Source: Cordylochernes scorpioides
Lineage: Eukaryota; Arthropoda; Arachnida; Pseudoscorpiones; Chernetidae
Assembly (NCBI GenBank): GCA_030710605.1
Contig: CP092875.1
Span: forward strand, 70,993,746 to 71,057,745
Length of the DNA: 64,000 nucleotides
Direction: 5' to 3'
Numbering within the stretch: the stretch's first letter is position 1; every line of letters begins with the position of its first letter. The position numbers and the translations under genes were made by a program. This document shows positions 9,850 through 34,945 of the stretch, piece by piece. Under the pieces are notes generated by a model. It worked only from the letters and a program-made list of their open reading frames with translations, did not search any database and was not told where the DNA came from.

Positions 9850-10610
9850 TCTCTCTATATATATAAAAGTCAATGTCTGTCTGTTTCGCATTTCCCGGCT
9901 CTCCTGGCCTCACCTGGCGATGATCCCCTGGCCACCCATCCCCAGGCCCCTCCAACTATGCTTTGTATATATTCCTCTTTATGCGTCCATCGGGGCTCAA
10001 AAATCATTCATTTTGGTTAGCAGCCCCGTAAAATAAAGATATTTTCTCTGTCTGTTTCGCGATAAACTCAAAAACTACTGAACCAATTGGTACCAAATTT
10101 TGCATGTCGCTTTTTATAAACCTGAGGAAAATTTTCGGCTACATTTTGATTAGTATTTTTGGCTATTTCTTTTTTTTTTTCATTTGAAGAACTTTCTACG
10201 CGAAGTAATCCGGAATGAAATGAATACCCAAATATGGCCATTTTTTATAAGCATCAGTGGTTCAGTGGTAGAATGCTCGCCTGCCACGCGGGCGGCCCGG
10301 GTTCGATTCCCGGCTGATGCATTTTTTTTTACAATTTTTAAAACTCATTTATATATTATATATAATATTTATTTTAATAAAATATATAATATAAATATAT
10401 ATTATTATATGAACTATATTAATTAAATCAAATACCTAAACACTAATATAATACAATTTTTGCCATCACACACACTTTTTTCCTGTAGTTTATGTGTTAC
10501 TTCTGTATTGCTATTCTATGGCACTTCTAATATTTATTATTGATGTACTTTCAGTATGAAGGAAATTGCAATCGGGGGAATTCTAGGGCGAAGCCGGGTC
10601 ATACGTCTAG
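9850..10610 (+). mobile_element. Helitron (761 bp) carrying a tRNA-Gly gene
   Basis: It begins TCTCTATATATATAAAAG after A9849 and ends ...GTCTAG at 10610 before T10611, so it sits exactly between A and T with no target duplication. The 3' hairpin (GGGCGAAGCCGGG area, 10586-10599) is imperfect. The interior contains a complete tRNA-Gly gene with its own terminator. No Rep/helicase. Confidence 0.78.
10251..10321 (+). tRNA. tRNA-Gly(GCC)
   Basis: 71 bases, the normal length for tRNA-Gly. The acceptor stem GCATCAG/CTGATGC pairs perfectly with A as discriminator. Anticodon GCC is at 10283-10285 in loop CTGCCAC, the T-arm is CCCGG-GTTCGATT-CCGGG, and the A and B boxes (TGGTTCAGTGG, GGTTCGATTCC) are intact. 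A run of T's follows at once (Pol III terminator). It looks fully functional. It lies inside a Helitron (9850-10610). Confidence 0.95.
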
Positions 10611-10968
10611 TGCATCATAAATATTATTTAAAATCTTTTTAAAAATTCATTAATTTGAAAAATTAAATTGAAAAAATGCACATTACATATACAGTAATTC
10701 ATCAAAATTTCAAAATAATAAAATAAATTAAAAACGAGGAAATAGAGAAAAACATCTCCAACCCTTAGTTTACAATTACCTGAGATTTCCTTCTATTTAT
10801 CATCGAAGTCGTTTCGTGAAAATATTTATATTTGTTTTACTTTGCAAATGTTGACTTAAGGACATCTTTGATGATGTACTTCAATTTCGCGCGTTATGTC
10901 AAGAAGATATCAAAATATGAGAAATCAATTGTTTTCACAAATACTTTACCATACCTTTATATTATCTA
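10611..10968. other. Kinase-duplicon relic between two Helitrons
   Basis: AT-rich sequence resembling the 3' flank of the kinase genes (poly-A-signal-rich 'attcattaatttgaaaaatt' text), ending with a short piece of kinase coding sequence at 10838-10887. Nothing else seen. Confidence 0.5.
10838..10887 (-). pseudogene. Kinase relic (last helix of the C-lobe)
   Basis: About 46 of 50 bases match the segment encoding the end of the kinase domain in the four other copies (plus-sense GCAAATGTTGACTTAAGGAC... GTACTTCAATT). The minus strand reads approximately ELKYIIKDVLKSTF, against ELRYTMKDVLKSTF in copy C. It is a fifth, almost erased member of the kinase array. Confidence 0.7.
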
Positions 10969-11323
10969 CTAGACGAATGGCCCGGGCAACGCCCGGGTTT
11001 TACCCGAGTGCGTATATATTTTAAAAATGTTTTAATTAAAATACTATTCGTTACAATTATAAATTGGCGCCGTGGATGTCTCTTTTGTGAAACGTCCCGC
11101 CCCAAACTGTGTGTGTCTTGAAAATATAAAAATAAAAATGTGAACGGAAAAATATGTCCAGGGTAGCCTAGTGGTCATGGCATCTGCCCGGTAAGCGGAA
11201 GGTCGTGGGTTCGATTCCCATCCCTTGACACTTTTTTTATTTTATCCATTCTGACCAAAATCTATCCGTGAACTTCACACAGTGAACTTCACACAAACAG
11301 AATAAGGCAATTATATAAGTAGA
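10969..11323 (-). mobile_element. Helitron family B (355 bp) carrying a tRNA-Thr-like gene
   Basis: On the minus strand: A, TCTACTTATATAATTGCC at the 5' end (11323), and the 3' hairpin CCCGGGCGTTGCCCGGG then CCATTCGTCTAG at 10969, followed by T. Same termini as the nested Helitron at 57062-57610. The tRNA-like gene inside is in the opposite orientation to the Helitron. Confidence 0.8.
11157..11229 (+). tRNA. tRNA-Thr(GGT)-like gene, probably a pseudogene
   Basis: 73 bases fold as a cloverleaf: acceptor TCCAGGG/CCCTTGA (one mismatch), T8 A9, D-arm GCCT...TGGC, anticodon stem TCTGC/GCGGA with loop CCGGTAA, T-arm GTGGG-TTCGATT-CCCAT. The anticodon by position is GGT, but the universally conserved T33 is C, and the acceptor and D stems have mismatches. 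The B box is intact and a T7 terminator follows. It could be a tRNA-derived SINE head. It lies in a Helitron. Confidence 0.6.
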
Positions 11324-11529
11324 TAATCCAAATTGTGCCTTATCACACACTATTTTTTTTTTTGGCCTTATTACCTTGTGTTTATAATCTATGACATAAT
11401 GCCGGCGGCGCGCGCCCGTTGGCTGCCGGCGAGCACGTGACCTGCCTGTGCGCGCGCATCCGTGACAGAACCGGCCGTCCCATGACGGTCGTGACTATAT
11501 ATATAATGGATGGATAATAATAATAATAT

Positions 11530-11565
<36 letters not shown>

Positions 11566-11700
11566 TATTATTATTATCATTAGATAATGATAATGATCAT
11601 AATGATGATGCGCGCGCATCCGTGACAGAACCCATGACGGTCGTGACTATATATGTTGATAGGACAGGATGGAATTCTTGATCTGTTTTTTAATTTCTAT
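11324..11700. repeat. GC-cored repeat family X (minus copy) and TAA microsatellite
   Basis: 11330-11500 is a reverse-complement copy of the repeat at 32878-34038 (GTGTTTATAATCTATGACATAATG, then GCCGGC/GCGCGC-rich core, then GACGGTCGTGAC-TATATATA). 11515-11590 is a (TAA)n/(TTA)n microsatellite. 11605-11655 repeats the GCGCGCATCCGTGACAGAAC end. No gene. Confidence 0.65.
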
Positions 11701-12005
11701 GTTCATAATATAAAGCCCCCTTTTATTAACATTATTCCGTAAATAAAATTTTTGGCTGCTAATTTAAGGTTTATTTGAAGGTATTTCTGCAATGAATATA
11801 TAAAAAAAATTAATATCAACCAGGCGTGATACTGAAATATTTGCGCCTATAACAGAAGAAAACAAACAAAATAACAAACAGTTATAGCTTTATTATATTT
11901 TGTTATAAAATTTGATAAATATACTTGTTTATAAAGTAAAGCAAGAAGTATTTAATCAGAATTTAAATATAGTTTAAAAAACCAACTTTTCATAAAAGAG
12001 TAAAG
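11701..12005. other. AT-rich non-coding; possibly LINE 5' region
   Basis: No ORF or motif recognised. It directly precedes the ATG of the LINE ORF1 fragment at 12006 and may be that element's 5' untranslated region. Confidence 0.3.
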
Positions 12006-12563
12006 ATGCAGAATATTGTAATCAAATCAACGATCGGCCCAGTTGGCGAAAAGGTCAGTATAATCGAAACCAACATACTTTTGAAAATTCTTGAAAGATG
12101 TGGCATCGAGTACAAAGTAGAAAATACTCCTTCAACCAAGAAACAAACTCGCGAATCTTCAGCAGATTCAACATCACGTAGCCAAAAGACACCGAGAATG
12201 GAAATTGTCTCACAGCATAATGAAAATGATGTCTCCATGAACGAGGTAACTGAAGTCCCTCAAAAAACGTCCGCTGCTACCCCTTCTCAGGTTAACGAAG
12301 AAAACATTGATGAAGATGGTCCTTGGACAACAGTTACACATGCAAAAAAGCCAAGAATACCACCTGTAATAGCAGAAAATGTAACAGACTGGAAGTTGCT
12401 CTTCCAAGAGCTGAAAGACCTATGCACAGATAAATTCCAATGTACGATCTCAGCAAATAAGCACATTATCAAGGCCAAAAATATTTCAGACTTAAAAAAA
12501 ATCAGAGAATACTTTCAAAAAAAAAATAATAACGGTGGCTACTCTTATAGACTCCAAGAATAA
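12006..12563 (+). pseudogene. LINE ORF1, N-terminal 185 residues
   Basis: An open frame from ATG. After an acidic, polar N-terminus it carries GPWTTVTHAKKPR and a DWKLLFQEL...IIKAKNISDLKKIREYF segment, the region before the zinc knuckles in jockey-type ORF1 proteins. It stops at YSYRLQE just where a foldback element begins (12564). The matching continuation (after SYRLQE) is what the LINE at 20970 begins with, but the two are 8 kb apart and I cannot say they were one copy. Confidence 0.65.
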
Positions 12564-12963
12564 TTAATTATAAAAAACACTTTTTAAAAAAAGCTTTTAT
12601 TTAAAATGCACTAAAAATAACAGAATAAATATTTCTGAAGTAATGCTTTTTTTCTGAAGGTACCATTTAACAAATAAAATATTAGACTTAGAAATAAAAG
12701 CGGTGGGGGATGATAATCATTTATGCAGCAAATAGGTATAAATTTAATGAAAGGCATAATCTTGCTAATCATTTGGCTTCATATAAAATCACATTGATCT
12801 CATATTTATTATTATTGTACCCCACCGCTTTTATTTCTAAGTCTATTATTTTATTTGTTAAATGGAACCTTCAGAAAAAAAGCAATACTTCAGAAATATT
12901 TATTCTGTTATTTTTAGTGCATTTTAAAAAAAATCTTTTTTTAAAAAGTGTTTTTATAATTAA
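12564..12963. repeat. 400-bp foldback element
   Basis: Arms ~12564-12710 and ~12820-12963 are near-perfect reverse complements (TTAATTATAAAAA... CTTAGAAATAAAAGCGGTGG / CCACCGCTTTTATTTCTAAG... TTTTTATAATTAA) around a ~110-bp spacer. It starts and ends with TTAA. No transposase. It truncates the LINE ORF1 fragment on its left and abuts a Helitron 3' end on its right. Confidence 0.8.
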
Positions 12964-14086
12964 CTAGCGGACGTACCCGGCTTCGCCCGGGTTTTACCCG
13001 AGTAAAGGTTTTTCTAACGAATCTCTCGATAAAGTGAACATTTTTTCCCGGTCCCTTGAAAAATACTCGATAAGTTGAATAAAATCAATATTAATTGGTT
13101 CCCTCGGTAATTGGAAGTTAAAGGAATAGTATCTTGCCTTGGAATTGTATCATTATTCTTGTCTCAAATAAATTGCCGTGTCATCCTGAATTTTGTCTTT
13201 CCTAATTTTCTACATTACAAAATCATCGTATCATCATGATAATATTTAGAGCAGATTGTTGAATTATAACCGATAAATTAGAATATTTATCTTGATTATT
13301 TTAAAGCGAAAAGTTATTTCAAAAATTTTATTTGCTAGAAACCTTCCCAGTACTAAATAACTTTCCAAAGTTTCATGGCGTTCCAATGAGTGGTTTGGTC
13401 AGGCATAAAGGACAAACAGACCACACACACACACACTGGATCGCCCGCGCCTCGCCGCCACGCCCATCTCGAGGTTCACCTCGAGATGGTCGCCCACCAT
13501 CGGTCCACCACCATCCAGGATCGACTGGGCCTCACTGCGGCGCGGCGCCTACTCGGGCCACGAGGCCGACGCGGTCCTCAAGTTGGCCCTCCACGCCCTG
13601 CCCCATCCAGCCCATCCTGCCTCGGTCGGCCCCTCCTGTCCTGCCTGCGGGTCCATCGACCGCTCCCTCGGCCACCGTTACTGGTGCTGTCGTTCCATCA
13701 GGCCTCTCATCAGAGAGGCCTTCAACATCATAGGGCGGCCCCCTGACCTGCAGGCTTGGATCTTCGGCGGGTCCGGCCTTGAGGACGACGCCCTTTCCAT
13801 CCTGGCGTCGGCAAAGTTGCGAATCTATCGCTACTTTGTCCAGGTTGGGCTCGGAGAAGTGGTGGAGGACCCGCTCATCGCCTGGTCCAGGACCCTCCAG
13901 CGTCGTGGTTTCCTTCCATCATCTACCATCATCATCTTGTAGTTTCATATTTGTATATATTTTCTTTCTCTCTTTCTTTATGTATATATTTTCTCTCTCT
14001 ACTTTATTGTTTGACAATAAATTTTTTTTTAATTGTCAATTGTCACACACACACACACATACATTCATTTTTATATATATAGAAGA
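12964..14086 (-). mobile_element. Helitron family A with an inserted LINE tail
   Basis: Minus strand: 5' TCTTCTATATATATAAAAATG (14086) and 3' hairpin then TACGTCCGCTAG (12964), preceded in plus by A12963. It has the typical family A interior. A GC-rich LINE tail (13436-14043) interrupts its CA microsatellite. The PLE insertion at 14090 starts at its 5' edge. Confidence 0.8.
13436..14043 (+). pseudogene. GC-rich 3' tail of a LINE ORF2
   Basis: Frame from about 13540 to 13942: HEADAVLKLALHALPHP, then a zinc-finger-like CPACGSIDRSLGHRYWCC (C-x2-C-x8-H-x3-C), then IREAFNIIGRPPDLQAWIF and LRIYRYFVQVGLGEVV, typical of the C-terminal end of a non-LTR retrotransposon polyprotein. A 3' region with CAATAAA and poly-T/short repeats follows. 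It is very GC-rich compared with the ~30% GC surroundings. Clade not determined. It sits in a CA-repeat, with CACACA on both sides. Confidence 0.6.
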
Positions 14087-14179
14087 TTAATAGTAGAACT
14101 TGAAACTCTTCCGGTGTGCAACTTAAGAATAAACGTATCATTAAACGGAAGATAAGAATCTTTTATTTGGAAACGTTAC

Positions 14180-14207
14180 GAGCTTTCGGGCAAACGCCCT
14201 TCTACAG
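14180..14207 (-). ncRNA. Hammerhead-like motif at PLE end (variant core)
   Basis: Minus strand: CTGTAGA, stem II GGGC-GTTT-GCCC (plus an A-G extension), GAAA, self-complementary AGCT, C. The layout is that reported for PLE hammerheads, but CTGTAGA differs from CTGANGA at essential positions, so activity is doubtful. Confidence 0.5.
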
Positions 14208-14399
14208 GTTTGACGAAACACAAAAATCAAGGCGAGAGACAGACCTATATACATGGGGACGATTTACATAGAACACAATTTTTATAGCTTAGCAGTAAGA
14301 ATTTTAGAATGGAAGTTAATTTTTAATAAGTAACTATTGTAGTGATATGGTAATAAGTTGTTGTATATAAGATTTTTAATTATGTAAAAAAGGAATAAA

Positions 14400-15916
14400 T
14401 TAGTTTGAAACAAAGATATCATAAATTTCGGGAATTTCTATTTTTCTATTTATGCTTTTAAGTTTGGTGGATACTATGGATTCTAACATTAATCTTTGGT
14501 GTAGGTTGGGTATGTTACGGTAATGGATAGTGGGGTGGTTGGTATTAAAAGAGTGGCCAGTGGATGCAACATGCTGATAGATGAGGGAACGTGGGTCGTT
14601 GTTATTAATGTTGCGGGTGTGTTCTGACATTCTAATGGCGACGGTTCTACCTGTCTCACCCACATAAGTGGCGGAGCAATGTTCGCATGAGACAGAGTAG
14701 ACCGCCCCAGAAGAATCCAGAGGACTGAGTTGGGTACTAGTTTTTGTAATGGGGTGTCGGAGAAGTGAGTGGATACTGGGGGTATTAATGAAAAAGGTGC
14801 GAATGCCAAATGGCCTAATGAGGCGGGAGATGCTAACTGTTAAGGGAGAATAGGGCAACATGCAGGTAGTCCTGAAGACTGGGGGAGGATTGGAGGGAGC
14901 GGGAGAATAGGTATGTTTATTAATGAATGTTAGTGGATAGGAGGCGGCGGTGAGATGGGAGATGATACGGGCTTTTTCTGTGGTTTTAAAGATGGGTAGA
15001 GAGCAGTGTGTGTGAAGGCGCCTGGTGAGTGTTTTAACGATGTTAATTTTGTGTACTATGGGACAGAAGGAGTTGAAATGGGTGTAGGTGGGGGTACTGC
15101 TATTCTTGTAGTATACTGTGATGTGGAATGATGCCGGGGTACGTATGATTAAAATGTCTAGGAAGGGAATGATGTGTCCCTGTTCTTTTTCCATGGTGAA
15201 CGAGAGGTTAGGGTTGTAGCTGTTGAGAGTGGACAGGATGGTTTCTTCATGGTCGGTTTTACAAATGCAAAGGATATCATCGACATATCGTCGCCAGAAT
15301 AGGATGTCATCACAATGGAGGTTGCAGACCCATTTATCTATTCTGGTCATAACCAGCTCAGCAGCTATGGAGGAGAGGGGGCTTCCCATAGGCGATCCCC
15401 TTATCTGTTTGAAATGGATATGGTGAAAGGTAAAGGTGCTCATGTTTAAGCATATCTGTGAGAGGGATGTGATAGAGTTGGTCTTGACGGGATCTGTGTT
15501 AATGGAAACCAAAAATTGGTTGAGACTGTCAATTATCAGGTGATGGGGGAGACGGAGGTAAAGGGATGAAACGTCAAATGAACACATGGTGAAGTTTTGG
15601 GGGGGGTGTAGGCCGGTTATTTCTTGAATGAGTGTGGGGGTGCTGGAAACTGTGAGATTACTTCTATTGTTTTTTAAAAGAGGTGAGAGATAATTTGAGA
15701 GGTACTTAGCTAGGGGGTAGGCGGGAGAGAGGTGATATGCAATGATAGAGCGTAGAGGGACAGAAGGTTTGTGGACCTTGGGAAGGCCGTAGATGTAGGT
15801 ACCATTGGGGAGATTAGTGGTAAAGGATTTGTGTTCCTCCGTTGAGATGAGTCTGGATCTTTTCATTCGGTTGAGAGAGGACTTGAAGGTTTTAAGTGCT
15901 ATTGTGATGTCTGTCC
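14400..15916 (-). pseudogene. PLE reverse transcriptase + GIY-YIG endonuclease, 5'-truncated
   Basis: About 505 residues remain of a protein usually 700-850 long; the N-terminus is lost. RT motifs: YIYGLPKVHKP, FDVSSLYLRLP, IRGSPMGSPLSS, WRRYVDDILCI (catalytic YVDD) and IPFLDILI. The C-terminal GIY-YIG domain shows VYSVSCEHCSATYVGETG, R-x3-RMSEH and the GHSF region. The frame runs open to 15971, but residues before 15916 are antisense of the inverted copy, so that start is artificial. RT and nuclease residues appear intact. Confidence 0.88.
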
Positions 15917-16577
15917 CATAGTACACAAAATTAACATCGTTAAAACACTCACCAGGCGCCTTCACACACACTGCTCTCTACCCATCTTTAAAACCACAGA
16001 AAAAGCCCGTATCATCTCCCATCTCACCGCCGCCTCCTATCCACTAACATTCATTAATAAACATACCTATTCTCCCGCTCCCTCCAATCCTCCCCCAGTC
16101 TTCAGGACTACCTGCATGTTGCCCTATTCTCCCTTAACAGTTAGCATCTCCCGCCTCATTAGGCCATTTGGCATTCGCACCTTTTTCATTAATACCCCCA
16201 GTATCCACTCACTTCTCCGACACCCCATTACAAAAACTAGTACCCAACTCAGTCCTCTGGATTCTTCTGGGGCGGTCTACTCTGTCTCATGCGAACATTG
16301 CTCCGCCACTTATGTGGGTGAGACAGGTAGAACCGTCGCCATTAGAATGTCAGAACACACCCGCAACATTAATAACAACGACCCACGTTCCCTCATCTAT
16401 CAGCATGTTGCATCCACTGGCCACTCTTTTAATACCAACCACCCCACTATCCATTACCGTAACATACCCAACCTACACCAAAGATTAATGTTAGAATCCA
16501 TAGTATCCACCAAACTTAAAAGCATAAATAGAAAAATAGAAATTCCCGAAATTTATGATATCTTTGTTTCAAACTAA
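15917..16577 (+). pseudogene. Inverted partial PLE copy (end of RT + GIY-YIG)
   Basis: It encodes the same C-terminal residues as the minus-strand copy, from the region after the YVDD motif through VYSVSCEHCSATYVGETG to the stop at 16577. 5'-truncated, with no start of its own. Confidence 0.85.
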
Positions 16578-16769
16578 TTTATTCCTTTTTTACATAATTA
16601 AAAATCTTATATACAACAACTTATTACCATATCACTACAATAGTTACTTATTAAAAATTAACTTCCATTCTAAAATTCTTACTGCTAAGCTATAAAAATT
16701 GTGTTCTATGTAAATCGTCCCCATGTATATAGGTCTGTCTCTCGCCTTGATTTTTGTGTTTCGTCAAAC

Positions 16770-16797
16770 CTGTAGAAGGGCGTTTGCCCGAAAGCTC
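16770..16797 (+). ncRNA. Hammerhead-like motif at the other PLE end
   Basis: Identical in sequence to the motif at 14180-14207 in inverted orientation: CTGTAGA, GGGC...GCCC, GAAAGCTC. Same caveat about the core. Confidence 0.5.
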
Positions 16798-16867
16798 GTA
16801 ACGTTTCCAAATAAAAGATTCTTATCTTCCGTTTAATGATACGTTTATTCTTAAATATAGAAGATTA

Positions 16868-17275
16868 TTCACGCTATTTTTAGTCGTATATATGCCAGTC
16901 CAAAAAAAAAAGCCTTATCACTGAGACGACCTTGGCCTTAAATAGCTGCAAGCCTGCTCGCAGCAGATTGGTCAAATCCTCGTGGGAGGTCGGAAGTGAC
17001 GTAAGCAAAATCCGTTACTAACAGAACTGCGTCTCTTTGCTTTTGGGAACCCTAAATTTATTGAATTATATTACAAAGTTAGAGACACCCAGTGGATTAT
17101 TGTTAGGGGATAATTGGTACATATAAAATTTGAATTATAATTAAACAAATGATTAAATAGTTAAAAGTAACAACATACTAATTGAAAAAGGGAAACTATT
17201 TAAAAAGGTGTCATGAAATGTATGGTGGTATATTGTTACACACACACCTATATATATATAATGAATATAAATATA
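16868..17275. other. Unassigned non-coding sequence
   Basis: A moderately GC-rich patch (16915-17040) then AT-rich sequence with a CA/TA microsatellite. No ORF, RNA gene or repeat recognised. Confidence 0.3.
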
Positions 17276-17288
17276 TGCGTGATGATAT

Positions 17289-18586
17289 ATATATTGCGTA
17301 TGATATTGTTTTTTACAGCACAATACAACAATGTTGGCAAGTTTCTCTAGAGTGGAATGTCGAGGTGACGAATCCACTCCAGGGCCTCCTCTGTGCACCG
17401 GTGGATATCCCCAAGTGTTCCCTGGAAGAATCTTCGAGGACAGTCCCTTAGGATATGGTGCATTGTTTGTATTTGTCCACAGTCGCAGTTCTGGTCTGGA
17501 CTCATGTTCCACTTATTTAGTAGGTAGTTGCATCTACCAGTAGAGGTCCTGATTCTATTGAGGGTTGACCAGGTCCTCCTAGGTAGGTTGTAGCCGGGAG
17601 GTTTGGTGTTAGGGTCCTCCACCAGGTCTTTGTTGGCGATGGCAAGATTGCTCCATCGGTTTCTCCACTCTTCTTTAAGATCTACATTTTCATCGGCCAC
17701 CCATGCAGGATTCCTTGATATTAGTCGAGTTGGGGGAGGAATTTCGAGAACAGTGTTGATTGGAAGCTTAGTGTTAGCTTTAATTTTACTGAGAAGGTTG
17801 GAGGTAGATTTCTTTCTTCTGAGGTCAGGAGGTGCTATGTTAGAGAGATATGGGAGCCAGTCTATAGGGGTAGGTCTCATGTTTCCCGTTATTAATCTCA
17901 TAGTTTGGTTAAGTTGAGCATCTATGCTGTCTGTATGGGAGCTTCTTTCCCACACAGGGGCGCAGTACTCCGCAACTGAGTATACTAAGGCGAGGGCAGA
18001 CGTGCGTAGAGTGTCAGCACTACAGCCCCACGTGGTGCCTGCCAACCTAGTCATGATATTATTCCTTGTTTTTAATTTATCTCTCGTTTTTTCAAGGTGT
18101 TGGCGAAAAGTGAGAGATCTATCAAGGGTTACTCCCAGATATTTGGGGCATGGATCATGGCTGAGTGGTTTGTTGCAGAATGTGAGTTTCAAGGGTCTAT
18201 TGGCTTTATGGTTATTCAGATGGAATACTGATGAGACTGTCTTGGAAGGGTTGGGAATCAGGTGCCATTTTGAGAAGAAATTCTCCAATTTCTTTAGGTC
18301 TTCATTGAGTATCTGTTCCAGAGTTGAGAAAGATTGTTCTTGGTGAAGAAGAGCTATATCATCAGCATACAGAAATTTTTGAGAATTAGTAGCTGGGATA
18401 TCAGCAGTGTAGACATTAAATAGTAAGGGAGCAAGAACTGACCCCTGTGGCAGTCCGTTATTTAGGGTGCGAGGTCTGCTTTTTTTGTTGTTGAGGTGTA
18501 CTGTTATTTTCCTGTTGGTGAGAAAATTATTTATTAGTTTGATGATATTTTTACAGTTGATTATTTTGGATAGTTTGTATAATAAT
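17289..18586 (-). mobile_element. 5'-truncated LINE (LINE3)
   Basis: A non-LTR element fragment flanked by TGCGTGATGATAT at 17276-17288 and 18587-18599 (13-bp target duplication). It contains only the RT core and C-terminal domain. A different lineage from LINE1/LINE2. Confidence 0.85.
17347..18560 (-). pseudogene. LINE3 reverse transcriptase, truncated
   Basis: Minus strand: GLPQGSVLAPLLFNVYTADI, KFLYADDIALLHQ (catalytic YADD), then FFSKWHLIPNPSKT, PKYLGVTLDRSLTFRQHL, ALVYSVAEYCAPVW and the C-terminal CDCGQIQTMHHILRDCP (zinc-binding-like) to the stop. No start codon of its own. The downstream 313 residues are open; the RT core upstream of 18288 continues through the truncation point. Jockey superfamily is likely. 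Confidence 0.82.
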
Positions 18587-18599
18587 TGCGTGATGATAT

Positions 18600-19013
18600 T
18601 GGAATAAGATGACTAAATTATAACAGATAAAATAAATATTTTTGTTGGCTTTTCTCATTTATTTGCTTGTAATTCCAAGGACGTTTTAGATAGGAATCTG
18701 AATATTTGGATTTCTAATTCCTTCCATGTCTTGAACATTTATTGAAAAAATCCTTTCGCAACCTCCAGCATTGTCGCATTTTTAGCCAAGAAAAATTGAA
18801 ATTGACAGGTTCTGGGAAAAAATAGTTGTTTTTTAGTCAGAAAATGATAATGAAAATATTGCTGTATCATGTTTGATAATCAGATACAAAATTATATAGG
18901 GAAAAAATTCCAAAAGAGCAGAGACCACGGGTGAAGCGAGTTCACTTTTAGTATGCAGAAACAAAATTCTAACAGAAAACATTCATTCGAGTAGAAGACA
19001 CAAAGCCAGATCA
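18600..19013. repeat. Old dispersed repeat, copy 2
   Basis: Homologous to 1900-2275 plus 8185-8202, here uninterrupted. It shows what the pre-insertion site of the two tandem LINEs looked like (CATTCATTCGAGTAGAAGACAC). It ends ...AGATCA immediately before a Helitron 5' end, just as copy 1 ends ...GGTCA before TCTCTATATATAAAA. Confidence 0.6.
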
Positions 19014-19245
19014 TCTATATATATAAAAATGAATGTATGTGTGTGTGTGTGGTGTGTCTGTCCTTTATGCCTGACCAAACCACTCATTGGAACGCCATGC
19101 AACTTTGGGGAGTTATTTAGTATAGTACTGGGAAGGTTTCTAGCAAATAAAATTTTTGCAATAACTTTTCGCCTAAAAATAATCAAGATAAATATTCTAA
19201 TTTATCTGTTATAATTCAACACACAATCTGCTCTAAATATTATCA
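19014..19245 (+). mobile_element. Helitron family A, 5' half only
   Basis: It starts TCTATATATATAAAAATG after A19013 and matches the 5' half of 902-1396 through 'ctctaaatattatcatg', then stops. No 3' hairpin follows. Confidence 0.75.
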
Positions 19246-21590: not shown

Positions 21591-21594
21591 AATT

Positions 21595-25117: not shown

Positions 25118-25125
25118 CCAACCAT

Positions 25126-25378
25126 ACAAGATATCCTACAAAATAAAGAAGATATAAATCCTAGATTCCGACGACCTGGCCCTGACTCTTAGTTAAGAGC
25201 TCATCGCTCAAAAGCTGCCCTCCTACAAGGTCTGGGGGAACCACTTCTACTCCACCAACTCGCCATGTGTAAATAGCCAGGACAAGGTGACTTGCGAGCT
25301 GTGCTCGAATGTAACACCCGTAAATTAAGACAAAATAAATAAATAAATATAAGACATAGTAAAGCCACGCTTGATAGA
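25126..25378 (+). other. Probable LINE 3' tail
   Basis: About 25126-25330 reads like a decayed LINE C-terminus (SYKVWGNHFYSTNSPCVNSQ, CELCSN) and ends in an (AAAT)n-type tail at 25330-25355. It may be the displaced 3' end of LINE4, cut off by the inverted repeat at 24265-25125. Confidence 0.45.
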
Positions 25379-25429
25379 TTGAACAGAAAGTAGGAGAATA
25401 GCGTGGTAGGTTTCTTTATTCGGCACTAC

Positions 25430-25460
25430 GAGCTTTCGGGCATCAGCTGCCCTTCATCAG
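25430..25460 (-). ncRNA. Hammerhead ribozyme, PLE type, canonical core (left arm)
   Basis: Exact mirror of 25473-25503 on the minus strand, with the same intact core. Because the two are in a perfect palindrome, a transcript through both would fold into one long hairpin and mask them. Confidence 0.7.
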
Positions 25461-25472
25461 GTACAATTGTAC

Positions 25473-25503
25473 CTGATGAAGGGCAGCTGATGCCCGAAAG
25501 CTC
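25473..25503 (+). ncRNA. Hammerhead ribozyme, PLE type, canonical core (right arm)
   Basis: CTGATGA, stem II GGGCA-GCTGA-TGCCC, GAAA, self-complementary AGCT, cleavage C, then GTA pairing with TAC before the core (3-bp stem I). All invariant core bases are present. The short palindromic stem III predicts dimer-type folding. Confidence 0.72.
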
Positions 25504-25554
25504 GTAGTGCCGAATAAAGAAACCTACCACGCTATTCTCCTACTTTCTGTTCAA

Positions 25555-26190
25555 AATATATATAAATAACAAACATTAGAACTTAGAATTAAATATTTAC
25601 ATGTATTAATCAACAGAGTTTATAAATTCTATATAGACAAAGTGGCTGATGTAAGAGAGTTAAATCATTTATATCAGAGAACAAACGATGTCTCACTTCT
25701 GTAAAATTTGGAGAGTCGTAGATAAGGTGAATGTAGAGTCGTAGAAGGCTATGAAAGATATTTAACACGCAGTGACCTTTATTAAAAACACACGAGATAA
25801 CAAAATGTGAACAAAGTTTTCTGTCTCCTTCAAAAAAAAAAAAAAAAAACAGCGTATCTATATTAAAATATATATATTTGATTTATTTATAGTGAAACAT
25901 CCTTAATATCTTGATAATAAGGTGCTTAACGTTAATATACATTAGATAGAGTTTTGAAAAAAATATTAGAAAGTCACTTCAAGCATTATTTATTATTTTG
26001 ATTCATCAAGAAAAGAATTTGTTATAGTGCTTAGGGTTTGAGGCTTTCTAAGCCCATATATTAGTCTGCTTGATTTACATATGTGAATAAAATATTACAA
26101 ATATTAAATGAATATTTTATTAATTTAAAAATAATATTAATACATTGGAAGAAAATAGAATACATGTTTTTACAAAACTATATACAGTAC
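25555..26190. other. 3' flank of kinase copy A
   Basis: AT-rich. From about 25740 on it matches the 3' flanks of the other kinase copies (GAAAGATATTTAACACGCAG, ACGAGATAACAAAATGTGAAC). On the minus strand an AATAAA lies at 26116-26121, ~70 bases past the kinase stop, and is conserved in position in copies B, C and D. Confidence 0.6.
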
Positions 26191-27156
26191 TTAAGAGAAT
26201 TTTTTTTTAAATGAATTTAAATGTTGACGCCAAAAAGTATTAAATTTGTTACAAGTTGAGAAATTTATCTCTTCTATTATGGGCTGCTTTACAAATGTTG
26301 ACTTGAGGACATCTTTCATGGTGTACCTCAATTCTGGATTTGGCTCCAGAAGCCCTGTGATCAACGTGTTAGCTTCTGAACAAGATGTGAGAGGAACTTT
26401 AAATGTGTCATTCATAAAAATATGCTCTATTTTCTTATCATTTTTCCGAGTAAAAACTGCTTTACCTTCAAATAGTTTGAAAATAGTACATCCCAACGCC
26501 CAGCAATCAATTTCAACACCGCAGAGTTGTTTCAATATTATTTCTGGAGCCTTGTAGACAAGGGTCCCTCCTTTATGTTTTATTTTTTTATTTATTGAAG
26601 ACAACCTCCGAGAATTACCAAAATCAGCCAACTTGACTACTCCATCTTTGAGTAGAATATTTCCTGGTTTGAGATCTCCATGGATGATGTGTTTCTCTGT
26701 GTGAAGATAGTGACAAGCCTTTGCAATCTGGTGTACATAATTTTGAATTGAATTTACATCTTTCTCCTTTTTTAAACAGACATCATCAAGAGATGAGTCA
26801 CAGCGTTCCATTAGGATATACTGAAATTTTTCATCACAGAAATGTTGGAAACATTTTACTATATTAGGGTGGTCCAAAGATTTCAACATTTTGGCCTCAT
26901 ATAGTGAACGTCTACACTTCTTTGAAGCCTTACAAGCCAATGTTTCATTTGATTTTATATCACGGACTTTGAAGCAACATCCATTCCCTCCTTTTCCAAG
27001 TAGATTTCCTTTCTCAAAACTTTGTCCTGTAGTTTCATTGGTGATGATACCCTCAACTTGAGAGTACAGTGCATCAGCATCAAAGGAAGCTAGTTTCTCT
27101 ATTTTCACTATCACCTTATTCCATATATTCTGTAATAATCTAGGCATAATAAACAC
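26191..27156 (-). CDS. PLK/NEK-like protein kinase, copy A (intact, intronless)
   Basis: 321 residues, a single open exon. Glycine loop GKGGNG (54-59), catalytic Lys in ACKASKK (K76), C-helix Glu in YEAK (87), catalytic loop HGDLKPGN (159-166), DFG (178-180), activation segment with GGTLVYKAPE, then CWALGCTIF. The kinase domain fills the protein; there is no polo-box or other domain. The HRD arginine is replaced by Gly, so it is a non-RD kinase, but the catalytic Asp and Asn are kept. Closest in feel to PLK/NEK/Mos-type kinases (family knowledge; not searched). The N-terminus (MFIMPRLLQNIW) differs from copy C because a different upstream ATG is used. Confidence 0.85.
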   Translation of the reverse strand: MFIMPRLLQNIWNKVIVKIEKLASFDADALYSQVEGIITNETTGQSFEKGNLLGKGGNGCCFKVRDIKSNETLACKASKKCRRSLYEAKMLKSLDHPNIVKCFQHFCDEKFQYILMERCDSSLDDVCLKKEKDVNSIQNYVHQIAKACHYLHTEKHIIHGDLKPGNILLKDGVVKLADFGNSRRLSSINKKIKHKGGTLVYKAPEIILKQLCGVEIDCWALGCTIFKLFEGKAVFTRKNDKKIEHIFMNDTFKVPLTSCSEANTLITGLLEPNPELRYTMKDVLKSTFVKQPIIEEINFSTCNKFNTFWRQHLNSFKKKFS

Positions 27157-27392
27157 GTTTATATCCTGATTGTTAATTTCTAATTATGTGTTGTTTTTAT
27201 CTGAGTGAATGTAAAAGTATTAAAAGAAGGAAAATATATTAATGTGATGCAAAATTATAGTTAATCATCCTCATTTATTTTTAATTTTTTATATTTAATT
27301 CTGTGGCGAAAAATAAATAAAATATGTTAGAATATTTATTTGTTTAATAGTAAATCTATTTTTAAAGATCTCATATGCATGGTTTCAACTCA
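27157..27392. other. 5' flank of kinase copy A
   Basis: Conserved with the other copies just upstream of the start (GAATGTAAAAGTATTAAAAG, GAAGGAAAATATATT) and further out ('ggtttcaactcagaaaccattga'). A promoter is probable in this conserved block, but I see no clear TATA/Inr pair. Confidence 0.45.
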
Positions 27393-27404
27393 GAAACCAT
27401 TGAC

Positions 27405-27598
27405 CAAATTTTATTATTATTCCGGATCCTTTTGTCACTATAGGCAAGTCGGGGAAAGGACAATTTTACAGATGACATTCCTCGAGTGAGGCCGTGGACG
27501 GGCCGGGACTAGAGAGAAAAGAGTGTGACAGCAAGCAGATGTCAAGTCGCTGATGTCGGAGGAGCCCTCTCTGGTTGGATAACGCCGGCAAGTGTCCG
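27405..27598 (-). mobile_element. SINE-like short retroposon (194 bp)
   Basis: Flanked by GAAACCATTGAC at 27393-27404 and 27599-27610 (12-bp target duplication), and absent from the equivalent position in the other kinase duplicons. GC-rich body; on the minus strand it ends in an AATAATAATAAAA tail. No A/B boxes of a tRNA are evident, so its head type is unknown. Confidence 0.65.
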
Positions 27599-27694
27599 GA
27601 AACCATTGACAATTAAAATAATTTTATTGACATCTTGTCAATACATGCAAAAGTGCACAGTCTGCACTATTTTAAAAAGATAATTATATATATA

Positions 27695-28549
27695 TGATAA
27701 TTTAAACCAATAACCCTATATTAAGTAATACGTATAACAAGATTGTCATGTTGTATATAGAACTAATTGCAGATTTATAACTAATTATATGCATAATTGA
27801 CATGTCTCCTTGCATCACCAAATGTAATGTACTGAGGATGAATAAATAAAAATATATAATAGATTAAAAGCTAAGTTAAAGGCAAGATTGAGAGATCACA
27901 AAGTAACTTCTAAAGATAGATTGTTAGCCGACAGGTAGGCGCCATTCTCGAGTATCAGAGACACGTGTGACACGTGTATGACCCAATTCTCTTTGTCGGA
28001 GAGGTAGTATAAATAAGACCGGCCTTAGCAACAGCAGTCAGTTCTAGTTGAGTTCCCCATCAGCGTCACCCCTTGCCGGTTGTCTCCAGGGACCAACTCA
28101 TCGACCATGTAAAACAGTAAGAAACCTTCTCGATCTCCATCTTAGCTTTTGGCTCGCTTTTTATCTATTCAAGGAACCTTCTACAACGTGTCGCTTCGTT
28201 TTTTTTGTGTGTGGACATCCCCAAGCTTTTTTCCACTCTGCCTCGACCACGACTGCCTGTACCCTGTGAGAACTGTTAAAGGCCCTACAAGGTGCAGAGA
28301 GGCTACTGGAAAACTCTCCACCCCTGACTGTCCCTCGCGGTTACTACAGGTTTGACCCTCGGTTGCCACAACTTATAGCGAGAGTCGACGAGGTTCTACA
28401 ACAGGCTTACCAAACCCCAACGCATTATTACAGCTAGTCGACAGGACCTCAACACAATATTACAGATAGTCGACAGGATCTCAACGCATTATTACAGATA
28501 GTCGACAGGATCCCTAATCACAGATAAGTCGACTCAACACAATATTACA
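27695..28549 (+). repeat. Left LTR of the non-coding LTR element
   Basis: 855 bp. It contains two E-boxes CACGTG (27962-27967, 27971-27976), a TATA box, an initiator, and near its end 32-35-bp minisatellite units (ATTACAGATAGTCGACAGGA) that continue past the LTR edge to about 28563. Confidence 0.78.
28008..28043 (+). promoter_or_regulatory. LTR core promoter: TATAAATA + TCAGTT initiator
   Basis: TATAAATA at 28008-28015 and TCAGTT at 28038-28043; the initiator A is 32 bases downstream of the TATA start, the standard spacing. TCAGT is the arthropod Inr consensus. The same pair recurs in the right LTR at 32306-32341. Confidence 0.7.
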
Positions 28550-31500
28550 GATAGTCGACAGGATTACCACAACGAAGGAGACCACAACGAAGAAGGTAAA
28601 GACTGTCCAGATAGATAGAAGAGCCAAGAAGCAAGATGGAGGAACAAGCACGCCAATCCAACGAAACGACCAAGCAATCTTCCCCCCAACGACACAGCCG
28701 AACATCCCGCAAAATAAGCCGGTGAGAAGTTACCCACCTTCGACCTTACAACGCTACCATCCAGACGACATGCCACCATCGCCAAACAGAAGTCACAAGC
28801 TTCTACAAGCTCTACAAGACGCCTTCCACGTCATCAGGACAACAACCAAAGACCAAGTCTCCTGACTGAACAAACATAAAAACTGTGAGTTTTTAAAAAA
28901 TCTACTTAACTCTTTCTACATGCTAACAACTTGATTTTCCATAAATATAATGTTTATTTTTACTGTAATTATTTTTAAATCAAATTTTACCATTTTTATA
29001 GCATTTCAATTCAAATTTTAAATATTGTACACCCTCATTTATCAATTTTTACTTTATTTTAAGCAACTTATAAATTTTAATTCATTACTTGCAATCTTAC
29101 AGTTTTAAAAAAATCATATTATATTTAAATTACTCGAATCATAATTCTAAACTTATTTGTGTGTTTCTCTTAATACCTTATTTTTATACCAAAAACACCA
29201 ATGTCTTAATTAAATACACAAAACTTTGCAAAAAATCATTGTTATGTTCACTATTTTATGTACACGCCCCATTCAAATTAAGTCACTATCACGCCATTGC
29301 CCTTTTACAAGTATAATTTTCGCACTAACATAAGCAACGATTTAAAAAGTATATTCAAATTTTAATAAACATAGATGAAACGCCTTTTTTTTTTAATACA
29401 AAGATCGAAAGATACACTATCTTCAAAAGCACAACTAGAAATGTAACTGTCCTTCCCCAAAACAAGTTAAAAATTCCAGTATAGCTACACTCCCTCGTCC
29501 TTTTCTTTTTACATGCATAATTATTAATAATTCACACATCCCTCGGAACGAACTTCAACACATTCCCACCTTACTTTCTCCAATTGGCCACATCTATTAA
29601 CGCGCGATTTAACAACATCCAATTTCGAGGCACACGAGCTCCATATTGTCGCGAACAAAAGAATTCGCAATAAACATGCCACCTCTATAACAATCTGAAA
29701 ATTCTCGATGTGTTTCGTACAACAACCACCCATGACTAATAAATTTGTTATTTATTCGGAAACTAGATAGATGCTGTACCCAAAAACGAAGACTTCACGT
29801 GGCACCTTTCCATACAACACCCACTAGTGTTACACAGCGCACCACAACAATTTTCTCACTTAACAGGCCCAAGACGCCTTCATGCCTGTGACACCTCACC
29901 AAAGCGTGTCTACGTTGAAGTCGCACTTTTATTCACATCTAAACCTGACATCATTGAATAACATTTTTTATTAAGTCCGCAACATCGTCGAGACACAACG
30001 CTTACGAACACCAAGAAAACTATATATTTCAAATAACCAATTAAATAACCTAACGCGTCCTATTACTTTGTGTAAGCAACATAAATCAGGAGATGACGAC
30101 CGCTGCGTCGGAAAGAACAACAATTATGGCCGCTATGTTGACATCTCCAGTTACAGCCGCCATGTTGACATGACACCTCCAATTCCAGTTCGCCTGTACT
30201 AGAAACACGTGATCCAACTCGCGGGACGGATAGATTGCAGCACCTAAAAACTAATTGACTTACCAATAATTACCCAATTTACTTATTAATTTGAACTTTA
30301 ATATTGAAATATCATAAAACTTTATATCTTCAACTATCATTGTGTGTTTTACAACTTTTACATTGTTTTCACGCCCAGTATGGAATATTTTTCTAAACTA
30401 GAACGCCATCTTTTATAATGTTAACCCTTTATTGTTATATATTACAATCATCTTCGTCAATACCATCCAATTTTAAGAATCAAGATCGCTCCCCGTCTGG
30501 TCTCACATAATATAATCGGGAAGATCTGGCAAAGACCAACTTCTCAGACCGGACCAAAGCGACATAGGGCCACATTGCCTCCCCATAGGTCAAACTAAAG
30601 ACACCAATAATCTTGGACCTACACCTAGACATTGTGTGAATATGTTCCTTTCTTTTTTTTTTTCAGGAACGAATATTTTTGTTTTCTTTTAACTTTTCTT
30701 CAAAAAAGACATTTTTTGCTCCATTTGTTTATCTAATCATTAATAACCTTTAATTATATTATATTTTTTTGTATAAAATCTTGAATAATTATTTTTATTT
30801 TTATTTTTTTTTTACTTTTCAATTATAATCAAATTTTTATTCCAACATTATTTTAACAACTTTATTTTAACAATGGCAAAACAGTTAATTCTTTCAATAA
30901 TCATTTTTAATTCATTATTATATCTTTTTTATATTACTAATTCTAATTATTATATCTTTTATATTGTGCTAATTCATTATTATGTCTTTTGTATATTACA
31001 TGTTTGATTTTATCCCCTTATACTGTTGTTATCCGCAATCATATTTCTATCTTTTTATTCACTATATTTTTGTTTAAATACTTTATTATATGACAATGTT
31101 TATTTATCAACAACCACCGGGCATACAACAATCGTTTTTCAATAATCCTACTAACTAATCACTTCCCTATACGTTTTGTCACTACCTCTTTCAGCCATTG
31201 CTTCGAACGATAGTAGAAACGACAGCACTGCTTGACAATTTTTCTTTTGATTTCGTAATTCAACAAACTCTTTGAAAACACCGTTCCCCAGAAGTACAAG
31301 TCTCGACTTTTGGTCTGAACACGTTTCAAAAGTTTATTTCAATCATCCGCAGAGCACATCACCAACGCATGCACAAAGCGTTCACTTTTTTCAATTTTCA
31401 ATTTTTTTTCAGCTCTAGCGGACCACAATCAACCTTTGATTTCAAGTCAAGTCAGACCACCTACTGTCGCTCCAACAATTCTACTTATCGCATGGTTCTA

Positions 31501-31992
31501 CCACCCCTTTCAATCATATTAATTCTTTTCTTCAACAACTTTTCAACCCAATAACCCTACAATTGTGACAAAGCACTGTAACCTTATACAGGATCGCAGG
31601 TGAAACATTGCCTAGGAAGACGCACAAGCCTATATCCTCGCTTTGCACCTGGATCTCAGTATTTGATTGTCTGTGCAACACTTACAATTGCATATTCTTC
31701 AACCCCTAGCCCTTTCCAACGCCCGCCAACAATCTCTTAGAACATCCTCATTATTTTTTTTAGCAAACAAAGGTTTTACCTACAGTTCTCTTTTATAATG
31801 AATATCATAACTTTTAAATTAAACATAAGTTTTATTTTTATAATTTTCAGATATAGCCTAATAAACATCTTGTTATAGCCCTTTACCCTCACAGTTTTAA
31901 TTAATTAAAAGAAATTTTAATTACTTACCTGTGTTAGAGAGGCTTTACCCGCTTAAACCCGGATAAACCCTTTCACTCACGGGGCCCATCTA
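28550..31992 (+). other. Interior of the LARD-like element, non-coding
   Basis: First ~330 bases are relatively GC-rich and rich in CAACGAAG-type purine motifs (28563-28880), then AT-rich to the right LTR. No gag, protease, RT or integrase motif in any frame. The minus-strand start next to the right LTR reads TGGGCCCCGTGAG, a possible primer-binding site. Confidence 0.6.
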
Positions 31993-32847
31993 TGATAATT
32001 TAAACCAATAACCCTATATTAAGTAATACGTATAACAAGATTGTCATGTTGTATATAGAACTAATTGCAGATTTATAACTAATTATATGCATAATTGACA
32101 TGTCTCCTTGCATCACCAAATGTAATGTACTGAGGATGAATAAATAAAAATATATAATAGATTAAAAGCTAAGTTAAAGGCAAGATTGAGAGATCACAAA
32201 GTAACTTCTAAAGATAGATTGTTAGCCGACAGGTAGGCGCCATTCTCGAGTATCAGAGACACGTGTGACACGTGTATGACCCAATTCTCTTTGTCGGAGA
32301 GGTAGTATAAATAAGACCGGCCTTAGCAACAGCAGTCAGTTCTAGTTGAGTTCCCCATCAGCGTCACCCCTTGCCGGTTGTCTCCAGGGACCAACTCATC
32401 GACCATGTAAAACAGTAAGAAACCTTCTCGATCTCCATCTTAGCTTTTGGCTCGCTTTTTATCTATTCAAGGAACCTTCTACAACGTGTCGCTTCGTTTT
32501 TTTTGTGTGTGGACATCCCCAAGCTTTTTTCCACTCTGCCTCGACCACGACTGCCTGTACCCTGTGAGAACTGTTAAAGGTCCTACAAGGTGCAGAGAGG
32601 CTACTGGAAAACTCTCCACCCCTGACTGTCCCTCGCGGTTACTACAGGTTTGACCCTCGGTTGCCACAACTTATAGCGAGAGTCGACGAGGTTCTACAAC
32701 AGGCTTACCAAACCCCAACGCATTATTACAGCTAGTCGACAGGACCTCAACACAATATTACAGATAGTCGACAGGATCTCAACGCATTATTACAGATAGT
32801 CGACAGGATCCCTAATCACAGATAAGTCGACTCAACACAATATTACA
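31993..32847 (+). repeat. Right LTR of the non-coding LTR element
   Basis: Equal in length to the left LTR and almost identical. Followed by TATATATACATATATA. Confidence 0.78.
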
Positions 32848-33357
32848 TATATATACATATATATATATATTACTATATATAGTCACGACCGTCTTTCCTC
32901 ATCGGCCGCCTCTGTCACAGATGCGCGCGCACAGGGAGGTCACGTGCTAGCCGGCAGCCAACGGGCGCGCGCCGCCGGCAGGGGGGGGGGGGGCGTTACG
33001 TCATAGATTATAAACACAAGAGAGAGAGAGGTAATAAGGCCAAATAAAAAAATAGTGTGTGATAAGGCACAATTTGGATTATAGATTATAAACACAAGGT
33101 AATAAGACCTAATCCAAATAAATAAATAGTGTGTGATAAGGCACAATTCGGATTATATTAATATATATAGTCACGACCGTCTTTCCTCATCGGCCGCTTC
33201 TGTCACGGATGCGCGCGCACAGGGAGGTCACGTGCTCGCCGGGAGACAACGGGCGCGCGCCGCCGGCGGGGGGTGGGGGGGCATTACGTCATTGATTATA
33301 AACACAAGGTAATAAGACCAAATAAAAAAATAGTGTGTGATAAGGCACAATTTGGAT
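32848..33357. repeat. Family X repeat, two copies
   Basis: Each copy reads: TATATATAGTCACGACCGTC, CATCGGCCGC, GCGCGCGCACAGGGAGGTCACGTG, a GCCGGC-rich core, a G-run (8-12 G), TTACGTCA, then GATTATAAACACAAGGTAATA and GTGTGTGATAAGGCACAATT. An E-box (CACGTG) and a CRE-like TTACGTCA are kept in each copy. Non-coding. Confidence 0.75.
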
Positions 33358-33770
33358 TATAGATTAGAAACAGAAGGTAATAAGACCAAATCTAATAATA
33401 AGGCACAATTTGGAATATAGATTAGAAACAGAAGGTAATAAGACCAAATCTAATGATAAGGCACAATTTGGAATATAGATTAGAAACAGAAGGTAATAAA
33501 ACCAAATCTAATGATAAGGTACAATTTGGAATATAGATTAGAAACAGAAGGTAATAAGATCAAATCTAATGATAAGGCACAATTTGGAATATAGATTAGA
33601 AACAGAAGGTAATAAGACCAAATCTAATGATAAGGCACAATTTGGAATATAGATTAGAAACAGAAGGTAATAAGACCAAATCTAATGATAAGGCACAATT
33701 TGGATTATAGATTAGAAGGTAAAAAGACCAAATCTACTGATAAGGTACAATTTGGAATATATATTAATAT
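33358..33770. repeat. 58-bp tandem repeat array (~7 copies)
   Basis: Unit: TAGATTAGAAACAGAAGGTA-ATAAGACCAAATCTAATGAT-AAGGCACAATTTGGAATA, with few differences between copies. It is an expansion of the 3' tail of family X. Confidence 0.9.
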
Positions 33771-33771
33771 A

Positions 33772-34038
33772 TATAGTCACGACCGTCTTTCCTCATCGGC
33801 CGCCTCTGTCACGGATGCGCGCGCACAGGGAGGTCACGTGCTCGCCGGCAGCCAACGGGCGCGCGCCGCCGGCAGGGGGGGGGGGCATTACGTCATAGAT
33901 TATAAACACAAGGTAATAAGGCCAAATAAAAAAAATTGTGTGTGATAAGGCACAATTTGGATTATAGATTATAAACACAAGGTAATAAGACCTAATCCAA
34001 ATAAATAAATAGTGTGTGATAAGGCACAATTTGGATTA
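33772..34038. repeat. Family X repeat, third copy
   Basis: Same order of blocks as in 32848-33357, ending ...CACAATTTGGATTA at the A before a Helitron (TC at 34039). Overlapping short ORFs on both strands are shadows of the GC-rich core. Confidence 0.75.
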
Positions 34039-34945
34039 TCTATATTAATAAAATGGAAATTTCATAAGTGGTGTTCGCTAAAAACTTTCGTTACAATGCA
34101 TCAATTTCGACCAAATTTTCAACATTTATGTAAAACTAGATGGAGCAGGGTTTGCTTAACATCAAAATATATTTCCTAACATTAACATGCGTAACTTCGC
34201 TGTTATCGATTAAATACAAAAAAAAATCAACAGAGTTAATTTTATTTATATATAAATACAAAATTAAATTTCAACAGAGTTAATTTTTTTACATACTAGC
34301 TAATAATCTCAATCTAAAAAATATTCAAAACAAGCAATTTTAAGATAACATATTATATAAATATATGATGTAACGAATATTATTATTATAAAATTCTGCG
34401 TGTTCCGGAATATTATTATCAATCATATTCGTTAGGCAAACTTTCACTCGGATAAAACCCGGGCGAAGCCGGGTACACATCCGCTAGTATTTAATACAGT
34501 TATCAGCGTCATGCACAATTCTGTCACGTTAAGTCACGTGTCAAGTTACGGTAAGTAGAATTTAAAAATTAAAAAAAGATGCCGAAACCCGGGATCGAAC
34601 CAGGGACCTTTAGATATTCAGTCTAACGTTCTCCTAACTGAGCTATTTGGGCTTATTTAACATATACACAATATATTTTAACAGTATATAAAGTAGAATC
34701 TGGAAAAACTCTTAGTGAAAATTTCAGGTCTCTATCCCGAATATCCGTCGTGTTATTTGCAAATTTGCTCTTTCGCTCGCGCCTCTAGCGGTGAAAATGA
34801 GGGGTAATACCAGCTGACCTAATGTACGTGTAAAGTTTGGAGCGGGACGTTTCACAAGAGCTCCAATTTATAATTGTAACGAATAGTATTTGAATAAAAC
34901 ATTTAATCGGGTAAAAGCCGGGCGTTGCCCGGGTCATTCAGCTAG
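34039..34945 (+). mobile_element. Helitron with two successive 3' ends and a tRNA-Phe-like gene
   Basis: 5' TCTATATTAATAAAATGG after A34038. A first complete 3' end (hairpin CCCGGGCGAAGCCGGG, CTAG at 34484-34487) is followed by ~455 bp with a tRNA-Phe-like gene and then a second 3' end of family B type (GCCGGGCGTTGCCCGGG, CTAG at 34942-34945). No second 5' terminus is seen between them. Read-through past the first end could have captured the tRNA segment. Alternatively, it is two fused Helitrons. Confidence 0.65.
34580..34652 (-). tRNA. tRNA-Phe(GAA)-like gene
   Basis: 73 bases on the minus strand, very close to the conserved metazoan tRNA-Phe. D-arm AGCTCAGTTAGGAGA, anticodon stem TTAGA/TCTAA with loop CTGAATA (anticodon GAA, plus positions 34617-34619), T-arm with GGTTCGATCCC. 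Acceptor GCCCAAA/TTTCGGC has one mismatch (C4 opposite C), and G37 is T. A T7 run follows on the minus strand. Possibly a recently decayed or still active gene. Confidence 0.85.

Follow-up and report, generated by a model that had tools for sequence, protein, structure and literature searches.

We analysed a 64-kb stretch of DNA (the window) from the pseudoscorpion Cordylochernes scorpioides (contig CP092875.1, positions 70,993,746 to 71,057,745, forward strand), in which transfer RNA (tRNA) genes lie within Helitron transposons, and searched the host genome itself (2.62 Gb in 24 contigs) for further copies. The window is AT-rich (35% GC) and dense in transposon sequence, and its open reading frames look like those of an animal, probably an arthropod. 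ARAGORN and the Rfam model RF00005 concurred on three tRNA-like genes in the 64 kb, namely tRNA-Gly(GCC), a Thr-like gene with the anticodon GGT, and tRNA-Phe(GAA), and all three sit inside Helitrons. The genes and the Helitrons concerned are as follows (window coordinates; L-numbers denote places in the genome):

9850..10610, plus strand: Helitron with tRNA-Gly in sense orientation, bounded as A^TC...CTAG^T, delimited from the sequence and from homologous copies
10251..10321, plus strand: tRNA-Gly(GCC), found by ARAGORN and Rfam (66.9 bits), with a T-run terminator directly after it
10969..11323, minus strand: Helitron with the Thr-like gene in antisense orientation, 355-bp form, ends and hairpin intact
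11157..11229, plus strand: Thr-like tRNA gene, anticodon GGT, found by ARAGORN and Rfam (54.2 bits), followed by a T-run
about 33764..34945, plus strand: Helitron with tRNA-Phe in antisense orientation, 5' end decayed (TT for TC), split by 34039-34487
34039..34487, plus strand: separate, nested Helitron, with an empty site in L024, L038, and L027
34580..34652, minus strand: tRNA-Phe(GAA), found by ARAGORN and Rfam (50.4 bits), with a T-run terminator
57062..57610, plus strand: Helitron lacking a tRNA, with ends as in the Thr-like Helitron (end identity; empty site in paralogues)

A preliminary description, made from the letters of the window alone, had already placed three tRNA or tRNA-like genes in separate Helitrons and had seen no other tRNA, and both observations were confirmed by ARAGORN, RF00005, and the Helitron ends. 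Neither program found a fourth tRNA in the 64-kb window, even when the Rfam threshold was relaxed to E 10, and ARAGORN gave no match in total on 100 dinucleotide-preserving shuffles of the window. The window contains 11 Helitron 3' ends (GC-rich hairpin sequence followed by CTAG). By random placement, the probability that three of three tRNAs would fall in Helitrons is about 0.001-0.003, as estimated from hand-listed Helitrons that cover 10.9% of the window (13.8% including remnants). The boundaries described at first were correct for the Gly and Thr-like Helitrons; those of the Phe Helitron (34039-34945) were not, as described below. A T-run stands immediately 3' of each tRNA, where no CCA is present, and the tRNA-Gly is structurally perfect; the preliminary description had likewise noted the T-run terminators and a perfect tRNA-Gly. 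A canonical sequence and fold with A and B boxes and a terminator were found for tRNA-Gly, and not for the tRNA-Phe with U37 or for the Thr-like gene. The acceptor stem carries a mismatch in both of the latter genes, C.U in the Thr-like gene and C.C in the window tRNA-Phe, and the tRNA-Phe also has one broken pair in the D stem.

To sample the Gly family by its flank, we used the tRNA-free segment 10030-10245 of the window as a query; it gave 161 candidates, of which 40 were scored and 30, including the window copy, were fetched. The tRNA-Gly was present in register at all 30 places (the window copy among them). The consensus of these copies agrees at 71 of 71 positions with the canonical gene as known from insects, and 12 of the 30 copies are unchanged. 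The window copy has an A-U acceptor pair where the genome consensus has G-C, and near the 5' end its Helitron contains about 160 bp that are missing from most other copies. Across the genome, the canonical 71-mer has 1757 exact matches (875 + 882), and its reversed pattern has none. Twenty exact copies were picked by hand at roughly even steps among the matches listed, all on contig C1; in 12 of them a Helitron TC end lies within 330 bp. One upstream module is common to 19 of the 20, and the downstream module is present in L112. A single tRNA-Gly module recurs across several Helitron types, so the captures were not all independent.

The Thr-like family was sampled in the same manner with the tRNA-free segment 11230-11323 (277 candidates, 40 scored, 20 fetched). 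The Thr-like gene was present at 19 of the 20 flank-selected places, in antisense orientation in all 19. Where the 5' flank was readable, the A|TC start was exact in 16 of 19 places, 12 of these junctions being at differing flanks and four, like that of the window, at a single satellite-like block; all nine detected 3' ends read CTAG|T. The exact 73-mer occurs 2610 times in the genome (1291 + 1319; reversed pattern, 0). The ends of this family are further supported by the tRNA-less Helitron 57062-57610, whose two ends resemble those of the Thr-like Helitron (91% identity over 34 bp and 95% over 63 bp) and which interrupts a further Helitron (56477-57718, minus strand) at an A^T site; paralogues of this host Helitron show the uninterrupted site. 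The preliminary description had called for a search for copies with and without the tRNA, and both 57062-57610 and L090 proved to be tRNA-less relatives. A 58-bp tandem repeat occurs in the Helitron-derived block (33263-33784 and 11324-11510), and the Thr-like Helitron stands at one position of this satellite-like block in the window, L079, L083, L084, and L092. We considered whether the block in front of the Thr-like Helitron is an unrelated satellite, and rejected this, as Phe loci show that the start of the block is a Helitron 5' end.

The Phe Helitron had been assigned to 34039-34945. When the flanks of 34039-34487 were joined, they matched the continuous sequence of L024, L038, and L027, and L039 has two extra bases at that point. 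These uninterrupted paralogues identify 34039-34487 as a nested Helitron with its 5' end at 34039, so that the tRNA-Phe Helitron begins at about 33764; the empty site also rejects a single composite Phe Helitron formed by bypass of the 34487 end. The start of the family, TCAACATATATAGTCACGACC, is readable in L028, L029, L033, and L036 and is preceded by A in the first three; its 3' end is CGTTGCCCGGG...CTAG. Twenty Phe places (of 40 scored among 1141 candidates, selected by tRNA similarity and not independent) have Helitron flanks in common, with a 3' end within 1300 bp in 15, and in 10 a sense tRNA-Gly lies between the antisense tRNA-Phe and the 3' end, giving Helitrons with two tRNAs.

The Helitron form of the tRNA-Phe (73-mer with U37) has 367 exact copies in the genome (185 + 182; reversed pattern, 0). 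G37 is nearly universal in tRNA-Phe, and a tRNA-Phe 35-mer with G37 has 64 exact copies. Sixteen of the 20 G37 copies fetched have Helitron flanks; the Helitron therefore formerly carried G37, and the U37 form came after it and reached at least 367 exact full-length copies. As old G37 copies decay, 64 is a lower bound, and 64 against 367 does not rank the two bursts in size. Near Helitrons we also noticed a tRNA-Tyr with a 14-base intron (L062:628-716), a tRNA-Leu(TAA) (L070:2657-2742), and the 3' half of a tRNA-Tyr beside a Helitron 3' end upstream of the tRNA-Phe in L027, none of which entered the counts; tRNA-Tyr and tRNA-Leu(TAA) are perhaps further captured kinds.

For comparison, ordinary tRNAs were collected with the Rfam tRNA model (280221 loose first-look candidates, which are not a count; 63 scored; 59 matches). 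Twenty of the 59 matches were fetched with stretches of about 570 bases and checked for four Helitron marks. Eleven were ordinary tRNAs (two Lys, seven Thr-AGT, one Arg, and one Ile), and none of the four marks occurred in the about 570 bases around them. The other nine were relatives of the Thr-like gene, and Helitron marks were found in seven. A less strict string, a 42-mer of tRNA-Lys(TTT), has 66 exact matches (40 + 26), many of them clustered on contigs C3 and C17; the listed exact copies of the Gly, Phe, and Thr-like genes are scattered along contigs.

We are highly confident that non-autonomous Helitrons captured whole RNA polymerase III (Pol III) tRNA genes as DNA, together with their terminators, and that rolling-circle transposition copied both. 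We directly observed tRNAs within Helitron-ended elements, empty sites, tRNAs at places chosen by flank, and exact copies in the hundreds to thousands. TC/CTRR ends and insertion between A and T without target duplication were seen in the window, at the Thr-like junctions, and at the empty sites, apart from the TT at the 5' end of the window Phe Helitron. The 3' subterminal hairpin was found at the Thr-like (-9.2 kcal/mol), 57610 (-8.8), Phe (-8.1), and nested (-7.4) ends, with 5-11 of 200 shuffles as good over these four ends. As expected for gene capture, the gene lies inside the element and is copied with it, and relatives without the tRNA exist. At least three tRNA modules (Gly-GCC, Thr-like GGT, and Phe-GAA) are built into Helitron families, and Gly and Phe are joined in one element. 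The results support Helitrons as a route of spread of tRNA copy number in the C. scorpioides genome; the preliminary description had offered this as one possibility, and it was upheld by the flank-only sampling, the exact counts, and the two-tRNA Helitrons.

Several observations weigh against this interpretation. The 3' hairpin of the window Gly Helitron has decayed (-1.5 kcal/mol, equalled by 160 of 200 shuffles), so that this element lacks a recognisable one. Eight of the 20 sampled exact tRNA-Gly copies have no recognised TC end. In five of them a second unit, with CAAGTATCAGAGTCATC upstream of the tRNA and of no assigned class, was found instead; the remaining three (L104, L107, and L111) have no recognised end at all. 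The short CAAGTATCAGAGTCATC unit stands upstream of tRNA-Gly in L093, L096, L102, L103, L112, and others, at times followed by another such unit, and resembles the interval from Phe to Gly in the two-tRNA Helitrons. L104 looks like the second unit, and L107 and L111 show the interior flank of a Helitron. The exact tRNA-Gly copies are thus in Helitrons firmly in 12 of 20 cases and probably in 14 of 20. Among the other families, L090 keeps the 5' flank of the Thr-like Helitron and lacks the tRNA, two of the nine Thr-like relatives (L125 and L132) show no Helitron mark, four of the 20 G37 tRNA-Phe copies have no Helitron flank, and the Phe places were themselves chosen by their tRNA. The preliminary description would have been overturned if the same flanks had lacked a Helitron end in other copies; the outcome was different, with a TC end within 330 bp in 12 of 20 Gly copies and A|TC in 16 of 19 Thr-like places.

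The copy numbers are very high, and this could also be expected if the tRNAs were heads of short interspersed elements (SINEs) or tRNA retrocopies that were retroposed into Helitrons and then hitch-hiked. The Thr-like gene would suit such an origin; to our knowledge, GGT is not a standard eukaryotic isotype, and the window form has no close parent among the Lys, Thr-AGT, Arg, Gly, and Phe tRNAs (39-47 identical columns of 74-78). In addition, L112, one of the second units, is flanked on either side by a repeat of about 15 bp. However, the T-run directly after the tRNAs and the absence of CCA indicate capture as genomic DNA with the terminator, not as RNA. The Helitron ends are exact, and the internal position of the tRNA is constant. 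A tRNA-derived SINE would have a tRNA head with a body, a tail, and target-site duplications; apart from the repeat in L112, we saw none of these additions, and we consider this origin very unlikely. Local segmental or satellite duplication, instead of transposition, might have multiplied the tRNAs, as tandem units do occur and some Thr-like Helitrons share the one position in the satellite-like block mentioned above. The scatter of the listed exact copies and the 12 of 16 exact Thr-like 5' junctions at different flanks make this very unlikely as well. That Helitrons only insert near or around ordinary tRNA genes, by target preference without capture, has nothing in its favour beyond the association itself; the tRNA keeps the same internal position in copies with differing outer flanks, the fetched ordinary tRNAs lack Helitron marks, and it is largely refuted by exact A|TC junctions in copies whose flanks differ. 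We regard it as scarcely credible.

As to how Helitrons took up the tRNA genes, capture may have proceeded by bypass of the element's end or by filler DNA; filler DNA, or recombination between Helitrons, would agree slightly better with modules that lie internally and with a Gly module that is reused in different Helitron types. A RepHel helper would mobilise the elements, and rolling-circle copying would then disperse the tRNA cargo. The tRNAs would be passengers that bring no benefit to the element, and within a family the tRNA may stay canonical, as in Gly, or may be spread after losing a conserved base, as with U37 in Phe.

The preliminary description had also suggested a benefit from Pol III transcription, for which the results gave no support. 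The proposal is that the tRNA gives its Helitron an advantage, with Pol III transcription opening chromatin or providing single-stranded DNA, and that capture was repeatedly selected. It is consistent with the capture of three or more isotypes, the existence of two-tRNA elements, and a Gly consensus that is fully canonical with 12 of 30 copies unchanged. In contrast, the abundant Phe form carries U37, the Thr-like gene has its acceptor mismatch, and the orientation varies (Gly in sense; Thr-like and Phe in antisense). Among the 30 Gly copies, the tRNA bears substitutions from the consensus in 32 of 2130 cells and the 5' flank in 137 of 6069, and the tRNA was less diverged than the flank in 20 copies and more diverged in 10. 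Private substitutions were no rarer in the tRNA (17/2130, 0.80%) than in the flank (37/6069, 0.61%; Fisher p 0.35), although the choice of the sample by flank similarity lowers the flank rate and 17 of the 32 changes in the tRNA fall at CpG sites. There is thus no support for selection on individual Gly copies; by these counts single copies seem to drift, and weak constraint on master copies is possible. That the Phe form spread after losing G37 argues against a requirement for tRNA function, and the Pol III promoter might still act by itself; a role of just the promoter boxes is compatible with all of the points listed above. Taken as a whole, we think an advantage to the element unlikely.

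It is conceivable, though we hold it with less than even confidence, that the tRNA-Gly(GCC) set is essentially transposon-borne, Helitrons having replaced or swamped the ancestral genes and now supplying the functional tRNA-Gly. If so, the dynamics of transposons would determine the supply of tRNA, and silencing of Helitrons may alter it.

Other features of the window were noted in passing. Three successive Helitron 3' ends lie in 1-1396 (at 214, 901, and 1396); the first two abut TATATATATAAAA, a Helitron 5' end without TC, a pattern as in head-to-tail or nested insertion. The Helitrons at 36992-37690 and 56477-56977 have a 3' terminal region of about 196 bp in tandem. Four similar kinase-like open reading frames are present (26191-27156, 43824-44447, 54852-55826, and 61596-62369 (minus strand)); the first and third, the only two scanned, match Pfam PF00069. 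The segments 27690-27989 and 31988-32287 form a pair of 300-bp repeats, 100% identical and 4298 bp apart, which either belongs to a longer duplication or arose as an assembly artefact. The Helitron end patterns gave no match in viral and prokaryotic contig collections, which may omit the genome of the window.

The presence of 1757 exact tRNA-Gly copies, mostly in Helitrons where sampled, makes it possible to test how the number of tRNA genes, codon supply, and tRNA fragments behave under transposon control, and whether the inflated tRNA counts of large animal genomes are Helitron cargo. The occurrence of one cargo in several types of Helitron, which are found with it and without it, is in addition a natural experiment on capture.

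Known non-autonomous Helitrons that took up gene fragments (silkworm, PMC3789558; bat Helraiser, PMC4778049) likewise have TC/CTRR ends, a 3' hairpin, host DNA inside, and many copies; unlike in those systems, the cargo here is a whole Pol III gene with its terminator, and the same cargo recurs exactly, hundreds to thousands of times. In the silkworm, cargo was surveyed by BLASTX, which was blind to tRNAs (PMC3789558), and protein-similarity surveys of this kind cannot see Pol III genes. As for capture, the reconstructed bat Helitron can run past its 3' hairpin and carry along flanking DNA, as happened in about 11.7% of events with the intact element (PMC4778049), and filler DNA at breaks is the route preferred in an insect study (PMC6544945). 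The heat-shock-element Helitrons of Caenorhabditis (PMC6927752) similarly spread a functional host-type module, many of whose genomic copies are Helitron-borne, but that module consists of Pol II transcription-factor sites and not of complete Pol III genes. tRNA-derived SINEs (PMC8010984) are also high-copy interspersed tRNA-like sequences with an internal Pol III promoter; unlike them, the elements here have Helitron ends, show no SINE body or tail, and do not carry the tRNA at the 5' end. In the literature searched, which leaves subscription papers mostly outside and is therefore weak evidence, no report of whole tRNA genes dispersed by Helitrons was found except a proposal for the Arabidopsis tRNA-Cys cluster, which lies over Helitron annotations (PMC10701932). 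There, too, tRNA genes were proposed as Helitron cargo, but the case is a single tandem cluster, over whose tRNA genes the Helitron programs that were tried made no reliable prediction; in C. scorpioides the ends are exact, and both empty sites and dispersed copies were observed. Capture by Helitrons as such is already known.

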